Origin: Deltaproteobacteria bacterium
Lineage (GTDB): Bacteria; Desulfobacterota; Syntrophia; Syntrophales; Smithellaceae
Direction of reading: 5' to 3'
DNA: 34,238 nucleotides
Assembly: GCA_012729055.1 (NCBI GenBank)
Contig: JAAYDW010000046.1
Coordinates: 1 to 34,238, forward strand
The translations under genes were made by a program, and so were the position numbers. Each line of letters opens with the position of its first letter. Within the stretch, counting starts at the first letter, position 1. The notes under the pieces were generated by a model, which was not told the origin of the DNA, searched no databases, and worked only from the letters and a program-made list of their open reading frames with translations. Below are positions 4,496 through 11,850 of this stretch, piece by piece.

Positions 4496-4542
4496 AAAAA
4501 CCGCGGACCGCTCGTCTGCCGGTCTGCAACGCTTAAAAATTG

Positions 4543-4586
4543 TGCGCCGCCGCCCGAAGCGGCGGCGCATCCCTTCTTTTTTTTTA
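4543..4586 (+). terminator. Strong intrinsic terminator or attenuator before the OYE-type gene
   Basis: The 11-bp GC stem TGCGCCGCCGC (4543-4553) pairs with GCGGCGGCGCA (4559-4569) around loop CCGAA. A T-tract of about ten residues starts at 4576. It ends only about 20 nt before the start codon of the next same-strand gene, so it could attenuate read-through into that gene. Confidence 0.85.
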
Positions 4587-4605
4587 TCTGCAAAGGAGAT
4601 CGTCC

Positions 4606-6564
4606 ATGAAAACACTTGAACACCTGTTGTCCCCTCTTGCCGTAAGATCGTTGACCCTGCCCAACCGGCTGGTGATGCCGCCGATGGGGACCGGCCTTGG
4701 CAATGAAGATTCAACGGTCAGCGAAGCCAACCTGGCTTACATCCGGCGGCGGGCGCAAAGCGGCGTCGGCCTCGTCATTACGGAAATCACCTGCATCCAT
4801 CCGTCCGGGCTGGTATCGCCCCATTCGCTGGGCGTCTGGGACGACAAGTTCATTCCCGGACTGACAAAGATGGCCCAGGCCATTCACGACGCGGGGGCCA
4901 AAGTGGCCATGCAGCTCCATCACTGCGGCCGGGAAAATTATCTTTTCCTCAAGCAGAAGCGGGCCATCGGTCCTTCGGCGGTGCCCAGCTTCGTTTTCGG
5001 CTTCCTGGGACCGCCCCGGGAGATGACGCTGGGCGAAATCCGGGAGATCATTGACGCGTTCGGCGCGGGCGCGGCGCGGGCGAAGGCCGCCGGTTTTGAC
5101 ATGGTCGAGCTGCACGGAGCCCACGGCTACCTGCTCATGCAGTTTCTGTCCGGCCTGTCCAATCGCCGGACGGACGAGTACGGCGGAGATTTCAAGGGGC
5201 GCGCGCGCTTCATGCTGGAATGCATCGCCTCCGTGCGCAAACAGGTGGGACCGGATTTCCCCGTTTCGATCCGCATCTCCGGCGAGGAATGCGTGAAAGG
5301 CGGCTATACGATCCAGGATATCCAGACCATCATTCCCGACCTGGTCGCGGCCGGGGCCGATCTCATCAACGTTTCCTTCGGCACGCACGGCTCGCCGGAA
5401 GTGAACACCGATACGCCCAACGCCAGCGCTCCGGTGGAGTACGATCCCGGCTTTAAGGCTTATCTGGCCCGCAAGGTCAAGGAAGTCACGAACGTGCCGG
5501 TGATTTCCGTCGGGCGCTACACCGATCCGTTTCTCATGGACGACGTGATCGCCCGCGGCGACGCGGACCTGATTGCCGTGGGCCGGCAGCATCTGGCCGA
5601 TCCGGACTTTCTGAAAAACGCCGTGGCCGGCCATCCGGAAGACACGCTGGAATGTCTGGCCTGCAACCAGGGGTGCATCGAGCGCGAGGCGCTGGAGCAA
5701 AAGCCGGTGCGCTGCGCGATCAATCCCGAAACCGGACAGGAACTTTTGCGGCCTGCCGGTCCGGCAAAGAACAAACAAAATGTCTGGGTGGTGGGCGGCG
5801 GGCCCGCCGGCCTTACGGCCGCGCTGGAAGCCGCGCGCCTGGGGCATCGCGTGACGCTGTTCGAACGCGAAAGCCGCACCGGCGGGAACGTGCGCTATGC
5901 CGCGCTGGCGCCGCATAAAAACGTTTACGACCGGTTTATCCGGACGCTTTCGGCGAAATGCGAAAAGCAGGGCGTGTCCTTCAAGCTCGGCACGACCGTC
6001 ACCGAAGCCATGATCGACGAGGCCAAGCCCGACGCAGTGATTCTGGCCATCGGCGCAGACAAAACCGCCTGCCCGGCGGAAGGCGCGAATGCGTCGGTGG
6101 TTTGCGACGCCTGGCAGATTCTGGACGGCAGCGTCAAACCCAAGGAGCCCGCCGTCATTATCGGCGCGGGTCTGGTCGGTCTGGAAACGGCGGATTTCAT
6201 GCGGGAAAAAGGCCTGAAGAACATCACGGTCGTCGAAATGCTGGCCAAACCGCCGGTCCTGGCGCAGGCGGCCCACGGCCAGATGCTTTACCGGCGGCTC
6301 GCGGCGCAGGGCGTCCGGCTCATGTACGGAACCAAGGTGAACAAAATCGAAGAAGATGCGGTCACCGTCGAGACGAAAGGCGAACAAACGAAGCTGGCCC
6401 CGGTGGCGCAGGTCATCGTCGCCATTGGTGTGACGCCCCGGTCCGAACTGCGGGAGGCCCTGGAGAAAAAAGGCATCCGCCACGTCGTGGTCGGCGACGC
6501 CGTTGCGCCCCGACGGATCATCGAAGCGACGACGGACGGTGCGAATGCGGCCTGGGAACTGTAA
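4606..6564 (+). CDS. OYE-family NADH:flavin oxidoreductase with C-terminal FAD/NAD domain (2,4-dienoyl-CoA reductase / enoate reductase type)
   Basis: A 652-aa two-part flavoenzyme that by family reduces activated C=C bonds (dienoyl-CoA, enoates or steroid enones). The N-terminal FMN TIM barrel (about 1-345) has the HGAHGYLLMQFLS segment with Y175 as candidate proton donor. Four cysteines, C350, C353, C357 and C370 (CLACNQGC then C), would hold the [4Fe-4S] cluster that links FMN to FAD. The C-terminal half (about 393-652) begins with the Rossmann motif VVGGGPAGL and has a second nucleotide-binding GAGLVGLE segment. The start ATG follows AAAGGAG; an upstream GTG-type start would include the terminator hairpin and is rejected. 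Length and layout match FadH/BaiCD-like enzymes, but the substrate is undetermined. Confidence 0.92.
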   Translation: MKTLEHLLSPLAVRSLTLPNRLVMPPMGTGLGNEDSTVSEANLAYIRRRAQSGVGLVITEITCIHPSGLVSPHSLGVWDDKFIPGLTKMAQAIHDAGAKVAMQLHHCGRENYLFLKQKRAIGPSAVPSFVFGFLGPPREMTLGEIREIIDAFGAGAARAKAAGFDMVELHGAHGYLLMQFLSGLSNRRTDEYGGDFKGRARFMLECIASVRKQVGPDFPVSIRISGEECVKGGYTIQDIQTIIPDLVAAGADLINVSFGTHGSPEVNTDTPNASAPVEYDPGFKAYLARKVKEVTNVPVISVGRYTDPFLMDDVIARGDADLIAVGRQHLADPDFLKNAVAGHPEDTLECLACNQGCIEREALEQKPVRCAINPETGQELLRPAGPAKNKQNVWVVGGGPAGLTAALEAARLGHRVTLFERESRTGGNVRYAALAPHKNVYDRFIRTLSAKCEKQGVSFKLGTTVTEAMIDEAKPDAVILAIGADKTACPAEGANASVVCDAWQILDGSVKPKEPAVIIGAGLVGLETADFMREKGLKNITVVEMLAKPPVLAQAAHGQMLYRRLAAQGVRLMYGTKVNKIEEDAVTVETKGEQTKLAPVAQVIVAIGVTPRSELREALEKKGIRHVVVGDAVAPRRIIEATTDGANAAWEL

Positions 6565-8779: not shown

Positions 8780-9709
8780 ATGAACGTCCAGCCCATCAGG
8801 CGGTGCAGCGCCCGCGGCCGGTTTCCGGCCGGGCGGCACCTGGTCCTCGCGTGCTTCTTTTTTTTCCTGGTTGCCGCCGGGCCGCCGGCCCAGGCCCAGC
8901 CTTCCTGGCCTGTGGTGGTTCTTTCGGCGGACGGAACGCCGATTTCCTGCGAGGTGTCCGGTGAGGGAGAACCGACGCTGATTTTTGTCCACGGCTGGAG
9001 CTGCGATGCGCGCTACTGGCGGGAGCAGGCGCCCTATTTTTCCCGGAACCATCGCGTCGTCCTGCTCGATCTGGCCGGCCACGGCCATTCGGGAATGGCG
9101 CGCCGGCGCTATACCATGCGGTCCTTCGGCGAGGATGTTCGCGCGGTCGCCGAAGCGGCGGGCGGCAAAAAAATCGTTCTCGTCGGCCACTCGATGGGCG
9201 GTTCCGTGATTGCCGAAGCAGCCCGGCTTCTCCCGGGGCGCGTGGTCGGCCTCATCGGCGTCGATACGCTGGAAAACATCGAATATCCGCTGACCCGCCG
9301 GGCATTTCAAAAGATGATCGCACCGCTGCGAAAAAACTTTCCGGAAGGGACAAGGCAGTTTGTCCAACCGATGCTGGCGCCCGACGGCGACCCGAAGCTT
9401 AGCGAGTGGATTCTTTCCGACATGGCGGCCGGGCCGCGGGCCGTGGGGCTTAGCGCCATGGAGGAGATGATGCGGCAGTACATCACCGGCGAGGCGGCGA
9501 AAATATTCGAAGAGGTCCGCGTGCCGGTCGTTTGCGTGAACGCCGATGCGTGGCCCGTCAACGCGGAAGCCAACCGGCGGCATATGCTTTCCTTTGACGC
9601 CATCATCCTGCCGAAAGCGGATCATTTCCTGATGCTGAACCGGCCGGAGGAATTCAACCGGGCGCTGGAAAAAGCCGTCCGCATGATTATGGAAAAAGCC
9701 GGCAAGTGA
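8780..9709 (+). CDS. Exported serine alpha/beta hydrolase
   Basis: A 309-aa protein with a long Sec-type signal peptide. A basic N-region precedes hydrophobic LVLACFFFFLVAA, with probable cleavage after AQA near residue 39. The mature part is an alpha/beta hydrolase with HGWS (71-74), the nucleophile elbow GHSMGG (S138), a likely acid D256 (VNADAWP) and base H282 (ADHFLML). By family it is an esterase, lipase or acyl-transferring enzyme acting outside the cytoplasm. The ATG after GAGGGAAAGG was chosen because it gives the signal peptide a clean N-terminus; an in-frame start at 8564 would lie before it. Its Ser nucleophile separates it from the Asp-type hydrolases upstream. Confidence 0.88.
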   Translation: MNVQPIRRCSARGRFPAGRHLVLACFFFFLVAAGPPAQAQPSWPVVVLSADGTPISCEVSGEGEPTLIFVHGWSCDARYWREQAPYFSRNHRVVLLDLAGHGHSGMARRRYTMRSFGEDVRAVAEAAGGKKIVLVGHSMGGSVIAEAARLLPGRVVGLIGVDTLENIEYPLTRRAFQKMIAPLRKNFPEGTRQFVQPMLAPDGDPKLSEWILSDMAAGPRAVGLSAMEEMMRQYITGEAAKIFEEVRVPVVCVNADAWPVNAEANRRHMLSFDAIILPKADHFLMLNRPEEFNRALEKAVRMIMEKAGK

Positions 9710-9776
9710 AACGCCGGATCTGAAAAAGCCGCGGTGGAAGAGCGAAAGCCGCGCCGCCGGCAAAGGGAGGCTTGTA

Positions 9777-11096
9777 ATGCCGCAGGAAAAGGATTTCCCC
9801 GATTTCGGAACCGATCTGGTCTACTTCAACCGGACCCGCCGGGAATTTCTCAAACTGGGATCGCTTGCCGTTGCCGGTTTGCTTCTGTCCGATGTCGTCC
9901 GTCCGTCGTTGTCCGCCGGCGCTTCTGTGCGGACGATGCGGTCCGATCGGGCCGTGGCGCTGGCGCTTAGGGACGCGGGCGCCCGCGTCGTCACGCACGT
10001 GCCGGCCACCGGCGCGGTGGCTGTTTTCGACGCGGTAAACGAGCTGGCGGGAACCAAGCCGGTCTATTCCTTTAACGAAGAGACCGCCTACAGCGTCGCC
10101 CACGGCGCGGCGCTTTCGGGCGCTCGTGCGGCCGCCGTGCTGAAAGCCCACGGCCTGGCCAAAGCGGCCAACAGCGTCATCGATTCCCTGACCCTCGGCA
10201 CGACGGGGGGCTTTGTCACGGTGGCGCTTGACGACCCGGAAGGCGCGCATTCCGACAATATCTTTCCGCTTCAGGATTTCCTGCGCGGCACGGGCATTCC
10301 GTTCAAGAGGGCGGGCCGCGAGACGATTTACGACGACGTGCTGGAATGCTTTTTGTGGTCCGAGAAGCTGACTGTTCCCGTGGTTCTTTTCGTCGATTCG
10401 CGCGAGCTTTCCCGCGAGCCGCCCGTTTTGCGCAAAACCCTGCCGCCGGTCAGCCGCCGGTACAGCCGCGACGCGCTGCGCCATGTGCTGTGTCCGCCGC
10501 TGGCGCCCTATCAGCGCCGTGTGCTGGAGGCAAAACTGGCCGGCAAAGACTGGCGAAGCATTTCCGAACCCGTCCTGCCGCCGGTTCCGCAGGGCCTGCC
10601 TGCCCTCTGGCGGCAGGCGGCGGCGCAGTTTGTCCCCGTTTTTGAGATCTTTCAGGCGCTGCGCGCGCAGATTGATTTTGTCGGCGGCGACACGGGGCTT
10701 TCCTCTCTGTTTGCCTTTCCGCCTTTTGCCTGCGTGGATGCGTGCAGCTACTACGGCGGCAGTCTGCCGCTCGCGATCGGCGCTTTTCTGGGCGGCCCAA
10801 AGCGGGTCTGGGCGGTGACGGGAGATTACGCATTTCTGGCCGCCGGCCATCTGGGATTGATCGAGGCGCAGGCGCACCGGATTCCCCTGAAAGTGCTGAT
10901 TCTGGACAACGGCCGCGCGATGGCCACCGGCGGCCAGCCTGTTCCCGAAGGTCTGCTGGAGCGGGTGCTGGGCGGCTGGACGTCCTTTGTCCGCCGCATC
11001 GACACGCCCGCCGACCCGAGCGCCGTGCGGGAAGCTTTGAGCCGCGCCCAGGCCTCGCAACGGCTGGAAATCGTGCACGCCGTATTCCGCGGTTAA
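9777..11096 (+). CDS. Thiamine diphosphate-dependent enzyme, indolepyruvate oxidoreductase alpha-like, with Tat signal
   Basis: A 439-aa ThDP-enzyme homologue. Residues 18-47 form a textbook twin-arginine signal: TRREFLK with R21-R22, a hydrophobic stretch (GSLAVAGLLL) and a possible cleavage near SAG (46-48). The mature protein has the N-terminal PYR-type domain, with the E101/E102 activating-Glu region in FNEETAYSVAHGAA. The C-terminal ThDP domain has GD (349-350, VTGDYAFLAAG) and ILDNGRAMATGGQP (375-388), close to the IorA ILDN...AMTGHQP segment. The C-terminal ferredoxin domain of IorA is absent and no beta subunit is nearby. It follows the exported hydrolase by 67 bp. Export of a ThDP enzyme with an intact cofactor motif is very unusual; a Tat signal would allow cofactor-loaded export. 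The reaction is unknown. Confidence 0.82.
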   Translation: MPQEKDFPDFGTDLVYFNRTRREFLKLGSLAVAGLLLSDVVRPSLSAGASVRTMRSDRAVALALRDAGARVVTHVPATGAVAVFDAVNELAGTKPVYSFNEETAYSVAHGAALSGARAAAVLKAHGLAKAANSVIDSLTLGTTGGFVTVALDDPEGAHSDNIFPLQDFLRGTGIPFKRAGRETIYDDVLECFLWSEKLTVPVVLFVDSRELSREPPVLRKTLPPVSRRYSRDALRHVLCPPLAPYQRRVLEAKLAGKDWRSISEPVLPPVPQGLPALWRQAAAQFVPVFEIFQALRAQIDFVGGDTGLSSLFAFPPFACVDACSYYGGSLPLAIGAFLGGPKRVWAVTGDYAFLAAGHLGLIEAQAHRIPLKVLILDNGRAMATGGQPVPEGLLERVLGGWTSFVRRIDTPADPSAVREALSRAQASQRLEIVHAVFRG

Positions 11097-11153: not shown

Positions 11154-11218
11154 AAATTAAACGTCGACGGCAGGCGGGTAATGCCTGCGGACGAATTATC
11201 GCATTAAGGAGGATGCAG

Positions 11219-11800
11219 ATGAAAAAAGCGACAGGATTGATTGTGGTGGCGGTATTGCTGCTGGCAGCGGCGGCGCTGGCGGCCCCGCCGGCCAGGATTC
11301 CGGCGATGGGGCGGACGGTTTACTCGCAGATGGACGCCAACGGCGACGCTCTCGTGACGGTAGCGGAGCACGCGGCTTTCTGGCAGGGGCGCTTCAAGGA
11401 CATCGATGCGGATCATGACGGCAAAGTGACGGCGGCCGAGTTTGCCGCCGCGACCAAGGAATTTTTCGGCGACATGGATGCGGACAAGGACGGAAAGCTT
11501 GTCGCCAAGGAATATCTCGCCTTCTGGTGCGGCCCCAAGGCGACGGTTCCCGATAAAGTCAAGGCGTCGAAAAAGCCCAAAAAGCTGGATGCCGACAAAA
11601 ACGGTCAGATCGGCGACGATGAGTGCATCGTTTTCTGGCAGGCCAACTTTTTCGACATCGACTCCAATCATGACGGCAAGATCACCACGGAAGAATTTCT
11701 GGCGGCCATGTCCCGGCGATTCAAGGAAATCGACAAGGACAGAAACGGCTATGTTGCCATTGAAGAGCACACGATCTTCCAGGCGGGCCAGGTGAAATAA
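11219..11800 (+). CDS. Exported six-EF-hand calcium-binding protein
   Basis: A 193-aa protein with a Sec signal peptide (hydrophobic residues about 6-22, cleavage near ALAA). Six EF-hand loops start at D39, D63, D87, D124, D148 and D172, each with Asp at positions 1 and 3, Gly at 6 and Glu at 12 (for example DADHDGKVTAAE). The spacing is 24, 24, 37, 24 and 24, so the protein is an internal duplication of a three-EF-hand unit offset by 85 residues. Single cysteines C104 and C136 sit near the junction. The start chosen is the second ATG, 6 nt after AAGGAGG. A periplasmic or extracellular Ca2+ buffer or sensor role is inferred. A strong terminator follows. Confidence 0.9.
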   Translation: MKKATGLIVVAVLLLAAAALAAPPARIPAMGRTVYSQMDANGDALVTVAEHAAFWQGRFKDIDADHDGKVTAAEFAAATKEFFGDMDADKDGKLVAKEYLAFWCGPKATVPDKVKASKKPKKLDADKNGQIGDDECIVFWQANFFDIDSNHDGKITTEEFLAAMSRRFKEIDKDRNGYVAIEEHTIFQAGQVK

Positions 11801-11819
11801 GCGGAACGTTATCCGGACG

Positions 11820-11850
11820 GAAAGGCGGACGGGTTCCGCCTTTCTTTTTT
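11820..11850 (+). terminator. Intrinsic terminator after the EF-hand gene
   Basis: The stem GAAAGGCGGA (11820-11829) / TCCGCCTTTC (11835-11844) with a 5-nt loop is followed by TTTTTT. Confidence 0.92.

Follow-up and report, generated by a model that had tools for sequence, protein, structure and literature searches.

A predicted Tat-exported thiamine diphosphate enzyme related to IorA but lacking its iron-sulfur parts

Introduction

A gene from a member of the Smithellaceae (contig JAAYDW010000046.1) encodes what is probably a folded two-domain thiamine diphosphate (ThDP) enzyme, a descendant or sister of IorA, that is exported through Tat and performs non-oxidative 2-oxoacid chemistry in the periplasm. 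The signal of this protein, its start site, its motif residues and the parts it has lost can be read from the DNA, and its fold is predicted by a structural model (Table 1). That it works outside the cytoplasm as a non-oxidative ThDP enzyme is putative, with chances that lie around even or somewhat above. ThDP enzymes are treated as intracellular, given that the cofactor is synthesized and retained in the cytoplasm. The stretch of DNA analyzed, referred to here as the window, is 34,238 nucleotides long.

Table 1. Features of the ThDP gene and its immediate neighbors, in window positions
Feature	Positions	Strand	Basis
Upstream alpha/beta hydrolase; Sec-type signal peptide when read from ATG 8780 (by eye), GAGGG ribosome binding site	8780..9709	+	Pfam, SD duplex
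Shine-Dalgarno sequence AGGGAGG of the ThDP gene	9764..9770	+	Read directly, 6 nt upstream of ATG 9777
Tat-tagged two-domain (Pyr+PP) IorA-related ThDP protein, 439 aa, ATG start	9777..11096	+	ORF, Pfam, NCBIfam, model, alignment
Tat signal region, residues 1-49 (approximate): n-region, TRREFLK (20-26), hydrophobic stretch, AxA-like site at 47-49 (by eye)	9777..9923	+	TIGR01409
Pyr domain with activating Glu101 in SFNEE and family-specific KAHGLAKAAN	9936..10409	+	PF02776, TIGR03336, alignment
PP domain: GGDTG, TGDYAF...ILDN, TGGQ	10683..11093	+	PF02775, alignment
Downstream EF-hand protein with signal peptide (by eye and hydropathy)	11213..11800	+	Pfam

ThDP Domains, Motifs, and Predicted Fold

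Profile searches assigned the PP domain to PF02775 (TPP_enzyme_C), with 42.3 bits against a cut-off of 21.9, while the Pyr domain scored 21.4 bits with PF02776 (TPP_enzyme_N) and did not reach the cut-off of 26.8. The original prediction of an intact GD...DN cofactor motif and an activating Glu was borne out by alignment: the Glu, matched to the NE of IorA, is E101 in SFNEE (residues 98-102), and the GD...N motif extends from TGDYAF at residue 348 (GD at 349-350) to ILDN at residue 375 (N378), followed by TGGQ at 384. E101, GD...N and TGGQ are retained across the family, in which a conserved K[AGS]HG[LF]AKA.N replaces the K[HQ]VG[VL]NVAAD of IorA.

A search of the PDB by sequence found nothing strong (best E 0.019). 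AlphaFold2 was run on an alignment of seven rows (A2) and gave five models, the best of which has a pTM of 0.80 and a mean pLDDT of 77.6, the other four ranging from 73.4 to 64.6. Foldseek returned 606 PDB matches to the model at E<=0.001. In VIA-align comparisons, with rows within 1 Z treated as tied, 350 residues aligned with plant acetohydroxyacid synthase (7stq) at Z 31.6 and rmsd 3.8, and values near Z 30 were obtained for pyruvate oxidase (3eya, Z 30.7), benzaldehyde lyase and decarboxylases. The predicted fold of residues 49-439 thus resembles acetolactate synthases and aligns with ThDP enzymes; it points to a ThDP enzyme and does not discriminate among reactions.

Relationship to IorA and Loss of the Iron-Sulfur Parts

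The best NCBIfam match of the protein was TIGR03336 (IOR_alpha), at 100.4 bits and far below the cut-off of 650.9, with residues 54-254, in the Pyr sequence, matching profile positions 5-211. Further likenesses to IorA include the NE motif of the activating Glu, a DDP...HS region, the GD...DN motif and TG[GMN]Q. Unlike IorA, the window protein has no domain II, no CPGC/GDIGC cysteines and no ferredoxin domain, and it carries a Tat signal. A MAFFT alignment of five full-length family members with eight IorAs extended these differences to the family, which has no middle domain, no CPGCPHR motif before the PP domain and no ferredoxin domain. The position of GDIGC in IorA is occupied by GDTGL in the window protein and by G/A-D/E-TG-x in other members, none with Cys; the ferredoxin domain and the CPGC/GDIGC cysteines are accordingly found in none of the five family members and in all eight aligned IorAs. 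No CxxCxxC motif occurs in the window protein, and no IorB-like neighbor was found among the 19 other open reading frames of the window that were scanned with Pfam. Earlier claims that the protein is without a ferredoxin domain and without a beta subunit agree with the alignment and with these scanned neighbors, while its description as an IorA-like ThDP enzyme needs qualification: the likeness in the Pyr domain and motifs stands, but domain II and the CPGC/GDIGC cysteines have gone as well.

Among 27 distinct IorA-like open reading frames, which were picked from the fetched loci by two IorA motifs, 26 have CPGC or CAGC, 26 a ferredoxin-type CxxCxxC, and all 27 [GSC]D[IV]GC. A related oxidoreductase is reported to have three conserved cysteines in its HpdF subunit, which serve the catalytic 4Fe-4S cluster, and eight in its ferredoxin subunit (PMC13285125). 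One IorA in the present set (L050) has the variants CAGC (in CAGCPHR) and SDIGC in place of CPGC and GDIGC. From alignment and general knowledge, we take the CPGC and GDIGC cysteines of IorA to be the same three catalytic 4Fe-4S cysteines. The exception among the 27 is a 521-aa open frame with neither CPGC nor CxxCxxC (L013, genome G084), perhaps a second kind of cluster-poor relative of IorA.

Because domain II and the CPGC/GDIGC cysteines are lost in addition to the ferredoxin domain, the window protein is unlikely to be a 2-oxoacid oxidoreductase, and the absence of these three elements suggests that the chemistry of the family on 2-oxoacids is likely non-oxidative.

Distribution of the Family and of the Signal

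At E<=1e-22, the family was detected in eight genomes: that of the window, G011, G056, G088, G134, G310, G399 and G650, the last of which contains the same sequence as locus L039. The sets searched, which overlap, comprised 99 relatives; an order-level and then a class-level set of 155 genomes each, which gave identical tallies; 395 genomes of the phylum; 389 of the order of G379; three of the family of G650; and, for G310, three genomes of its order and 17 of its class. Counting the window's own genome where it was sampled, the family was represented in 5 of the 155 class genomes, in 3 of the 395 sampled from the phylum and in 1 of the 389 from the order of G379. A scan of the genome contigs found one locus, and a plasmid search gave three records with partial, weak matches.

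A Tat signal is present in two of the eight genomes, those of the window and of L039 (G650), the latter being the sole additional Tat-bearing orthologue in all sets searched. It is absent from G056, G088, G134, G310 and G399, where 4 to 24 residues of open frame precede the probable start and contain no RR. The remaining genome, G011, belongs to the same genus as the window and holds only a 3' remnant, so that its N-terminus is missing. The original prediction had looked to orthologue N-termini for its refutation, and the result is mixed, since the roughly 50 N-terminal residues are lacking in five of the seven other genomes and present in one, the seventh holding the remnant. From this distribution, the signal belongs to one branch and does not mark the whole ThDP family. 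The five signal-less orthologues are 42-49% identical to the window protein, and the four that are full length share its two-domain layout (the G088 gene is a fragment whose 3' end is cut by the contig end); they differ from it in having no Tat signal and other neighbor genes.

In an unrooted family tree of seven rows, two of them partial, the window and L039 proteins grouped together (99/99). An IorA-rooted tree of 218 columns used six of the seven intended IorAs, L013 having given no row, and recovered the five signal-less genes as a clade (94/94). The two Tat genes were not resolved at the base, since no more than 18% of 200 bootstrap trees united them in a clade, and one gain and one loss of the signal both fit.

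The condition of the other copies in this branch raises the question of whether the exported protein might be decaying or inactive, in a branch that is losing the gene. At L039:7956-8856, the residues equivalent to 13-236 lie in one frame and those equivalent to 356-438 in another, with the middle missing; the gene, whose open piece is 52% identical to the window protein, is broken, or misassembled, in that one MAG. The G011 remnant (L047:2823-3071) comprises the last 82 codons at 89% identity, the value by which G011 is counted in the branch, and lies alone inside a contig of 6990 bases. Broken or truncated copies in two of three branch genomes suggest that the gene is dispensable and favor decay, as does the rarity of the family in its class. 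The window copy, in contrast, is intact, its activating Glu, GD...N motif and TGGQ all preserved, and its body shows pN 0.319 and pS 0.810 against L039 (codons 54-235), which makes decay an unlikely account of the window gene. The first 53 codons (pN 0.395, pS 0.538) are less constrained than the body, a point against the exported-enzyme reading. The G011 remnant adjoins HicA/HicB-like open reading frames, named by eye.

The Tat Signal

The N-terminus of the ThDP protein, MPQEKDFPDFGTDLVYFNRTRREFLKLGSLAVAGLLLSDVVRPSLSAGAS, contains DLVYFNRTRREFLKLGSLAVAGLLLSDVVRPSLSAGA. In its first 64 residues, TIGR01409 (TAT_signal_seq) scored 17.9 bits against a curated cut-off of 16.7, while Pfam TAT_signal, at 13.2 bits, was below its cut-off of 22.7. 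Across the genome, TIGR01409 gave 16 matches at E<=1, of which 15 were marked as over the cut-off; the ThDP gene is among these 15 and ranks thirteenth by score of the 16. The genome encodes TatC (E 1.7e-75). A comparison of coordinates revealed that, of 13 TPP_enzyme_C (PF02775) loci in the genome, only that of the window overlaps a Tat match. The signal of L039, DLTYFNRSRREFLKLTGL...ALA/A (the slash marking a site placed by eye), scored 16.0 bits with TIGR01409, just under the cut-off, and was also below that of Pfam TAT_signal; 12 of 22 residues are identical between the two proteins at positions 19-40.

The Tat signal is well supported because a strong ribosome binding site precedes it, a curated Tat model recognizes it, TatC is encoded in the genome and the signal is conserved in one distant orthologue. 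Judged by its sequence, the window protein is very probably a Tat substrate, in keeping with the signal originally proposed from TRREFLK, a hydrophobic stretch and a cleavage-like site. The segment could instead be kept uncleaved as a membrane anchor. The putative cleavage site, SLSAGA in the window protein and TALA/A in L039 (by eye), offers no clean match, yet AGA at residues 47-49 supplies an AxA site, and residues 1-48 have pLDDT < 50 and are separate from the folded body in the AlphaFold2 model; an anchor accordingly seems improbable.

Translation Start

Directly 5' of ATG 9777 lies AAAGGGAGGCTTGTA, for which the anti-SD duplex energy is -10.0 kcal/mol, as compared with -3.2 kcal/mol at the inner ATG 9936 (residue 54) and -1.7 at GTG 9927. 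The strong ribosome binding site at 9777 and the weak one at 9936 speak for translation of the signal region. If translation began at ATG 9936, the product would be a cytoplasmic protein like its relatives and the upstream stretch would be unused, an arrangement suggested by the signal-less orthologues, which begin at about the equivalent point, so that the inner ATG is near their starts. Against such a start, nothing comparable to AGGGAGG precedes 9936, and the Tat motif is kept in L039 with the identity at residues 19-40 described above. The Tat-like pattern is, moreover, scarce outside loci selected by the Tat model: RRxF[LIVM][KR] followed by an uncharged stretch occurred in 13 of 994 distinct six-frame segments of at least 100 aa in the fetched loci, and these were the ThDP gene, the orthologue L044 and 11 segments from loci fetched by a Tat-model match, among which genes in overlapping loci are counted twice. 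Initiation at the inner ATG is therefore given only a small probability.

Genomic Surroundings

The signal peptides that the products of both flanking genes appear to carry fit a shared location with the ThDP protein, as far as position goes. A terminator-like stem and T-run at 11819-11845 lies 3' of the EF-hand gene; with 12 such sites in the stretch and 8.2 in shuffles, little rests on it. The EF-hand protein has six EF-hand loops (by eye) and scored 69 bits with the lanmodulin model NF053806, under the cut-off of 135. Lanmodulin has Pro at loop position 2, which this protein does not (by eye). At 18-1025, the window also contains a Y1/REP-type transposase (PF01797), part of whose C-terminus resembles the DnaA helix-turn-helix, at 26.2 bits and below the cut-off of 31.5.

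A conserved operon was rejected, as the scanned neighbors differ among orthologues and none is common. In G134, an upstream GhrA-like 2-hydroxyacid dehydrogenase (306 bits, under the cut-off of 403) and an ABC transporter are found, the former hinting, in that genome only, at a small 2-oxoacid substrate. G310 has an adenylate cyclase with a C-terminal EF-hand, a downstream CDF transporter and Thy1; the cyclase, an adenylate/guanylate cyclase domain protein at L048:9777-10829, is directly upstream of the ThDP gene. The neighbors in G399 are a hydrolase with Ig/cadherin-like domains, an exonuclease and an aminotransferase; G056 and G088, of one genus, have an RtcB-like open reading frame upstream of the ThDP gene (named by eye), and L039 has a tRNA-like sequence upstream (named by eye) and GDPD downstream. 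The EF-hand link between the window and G310 was left as coincidence, being found in two of six contexts, the other four of which were only partly scanned.

Pfam was applied to four of the 15 other Tat-matching places of the genome, and three proved to be FAD_binding_2 proteins and one an amidohydrolase. Tat-tagged FAD_binding_2 proteins of this genome have an LPKKW motif after the signal (G000 C105, C68 and C51; L056, L058 and L063). An exported oxidative enzyme, whose ThDP adduct would be oxidized by an extracytoplasmic flavoprotein or heme protein rather than by ferredoxin, would draw on these FAD proteins and on the shared fold of pyruvate oxidase, but it is very unlikely, given that the ThDP protein has no flavin domain and that the one nearby FAD-type gene (OYE-like, 4540-6564) is not adjacent and has no signal peptide by hydropathy.

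Proposed Mechanism and Significance

On the preferred reading, of an exported non-oxidative enzyme, a two-domain ThDP protein that derives from the IorA alpha subunit, or is its sister, has lost what oxidative, ferredoxin-linked chemistry requires, namely domain II, the CPGC/GDIGC cysteines and the ferredoxin domain, and in the branch of the window it carries a Tat signal. The protein may fold, dimerize and take up ThDP and metal in the cytoplasm, after which it would be exported in folded form through the Tat system and either cut near residue 47-49 or left anchored. In the periplasm, it could act on a 2-oxoacid much as 2-oxoacid decarboxylases do, by decarboxylation or carboligation that needs no iron-sulfur acceptor. 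In its fullest form, this proposal of an extracytoplasmic, Tat-exported ThDP decarboxylase or carboligase, from one branch of a cluster-free side line of IorA that is so far undescribed, and possibly associated with the flanking secreted hydrolase and EF-hand protein, is tentative, its chances falling a little short of even.

If the proposal is correct, ThDP joins the cofactors carried out by Tat, and the question arises of which 2-oxoacid chemistry pays in the periplasm. Comparison with the signal-less sisters offers a natural way to test the contribution of the signal, and the family, as an IorA relative without iron-sulfur parts, may illustrate how oxidative ThDP chemistry can become non-oxidative by simple means.

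Comparison with Known ThDP Enzymes

Searches of a library of open-licence papers turned up no account of an exported ThDP enzyme. Acetolactate/acetohydroxyacid synthases and 2-oxoacid decarboxylases are proteins of about 520-610 residues with a central domain. The ThDP protein shares their fold (Z 29-32 over 323-359 residues among the matches listed) but is without the central domain and is 11-19% identical to them. Phosphonopyruvate and sulfopyruvate decarboxylases, which carry out non-oxidative 2-oxoacid chemistry in the cytoplasm, likewise have a Pyr and a PP domain and no middle domain. Their models TIGR03297 and TIGR03845/03846 scored about 18 bits each, against cut-offs of 312.5, 147.95 and 221.5, which places the protein outside these families; the IorA profile gives it a much higher score than they do.
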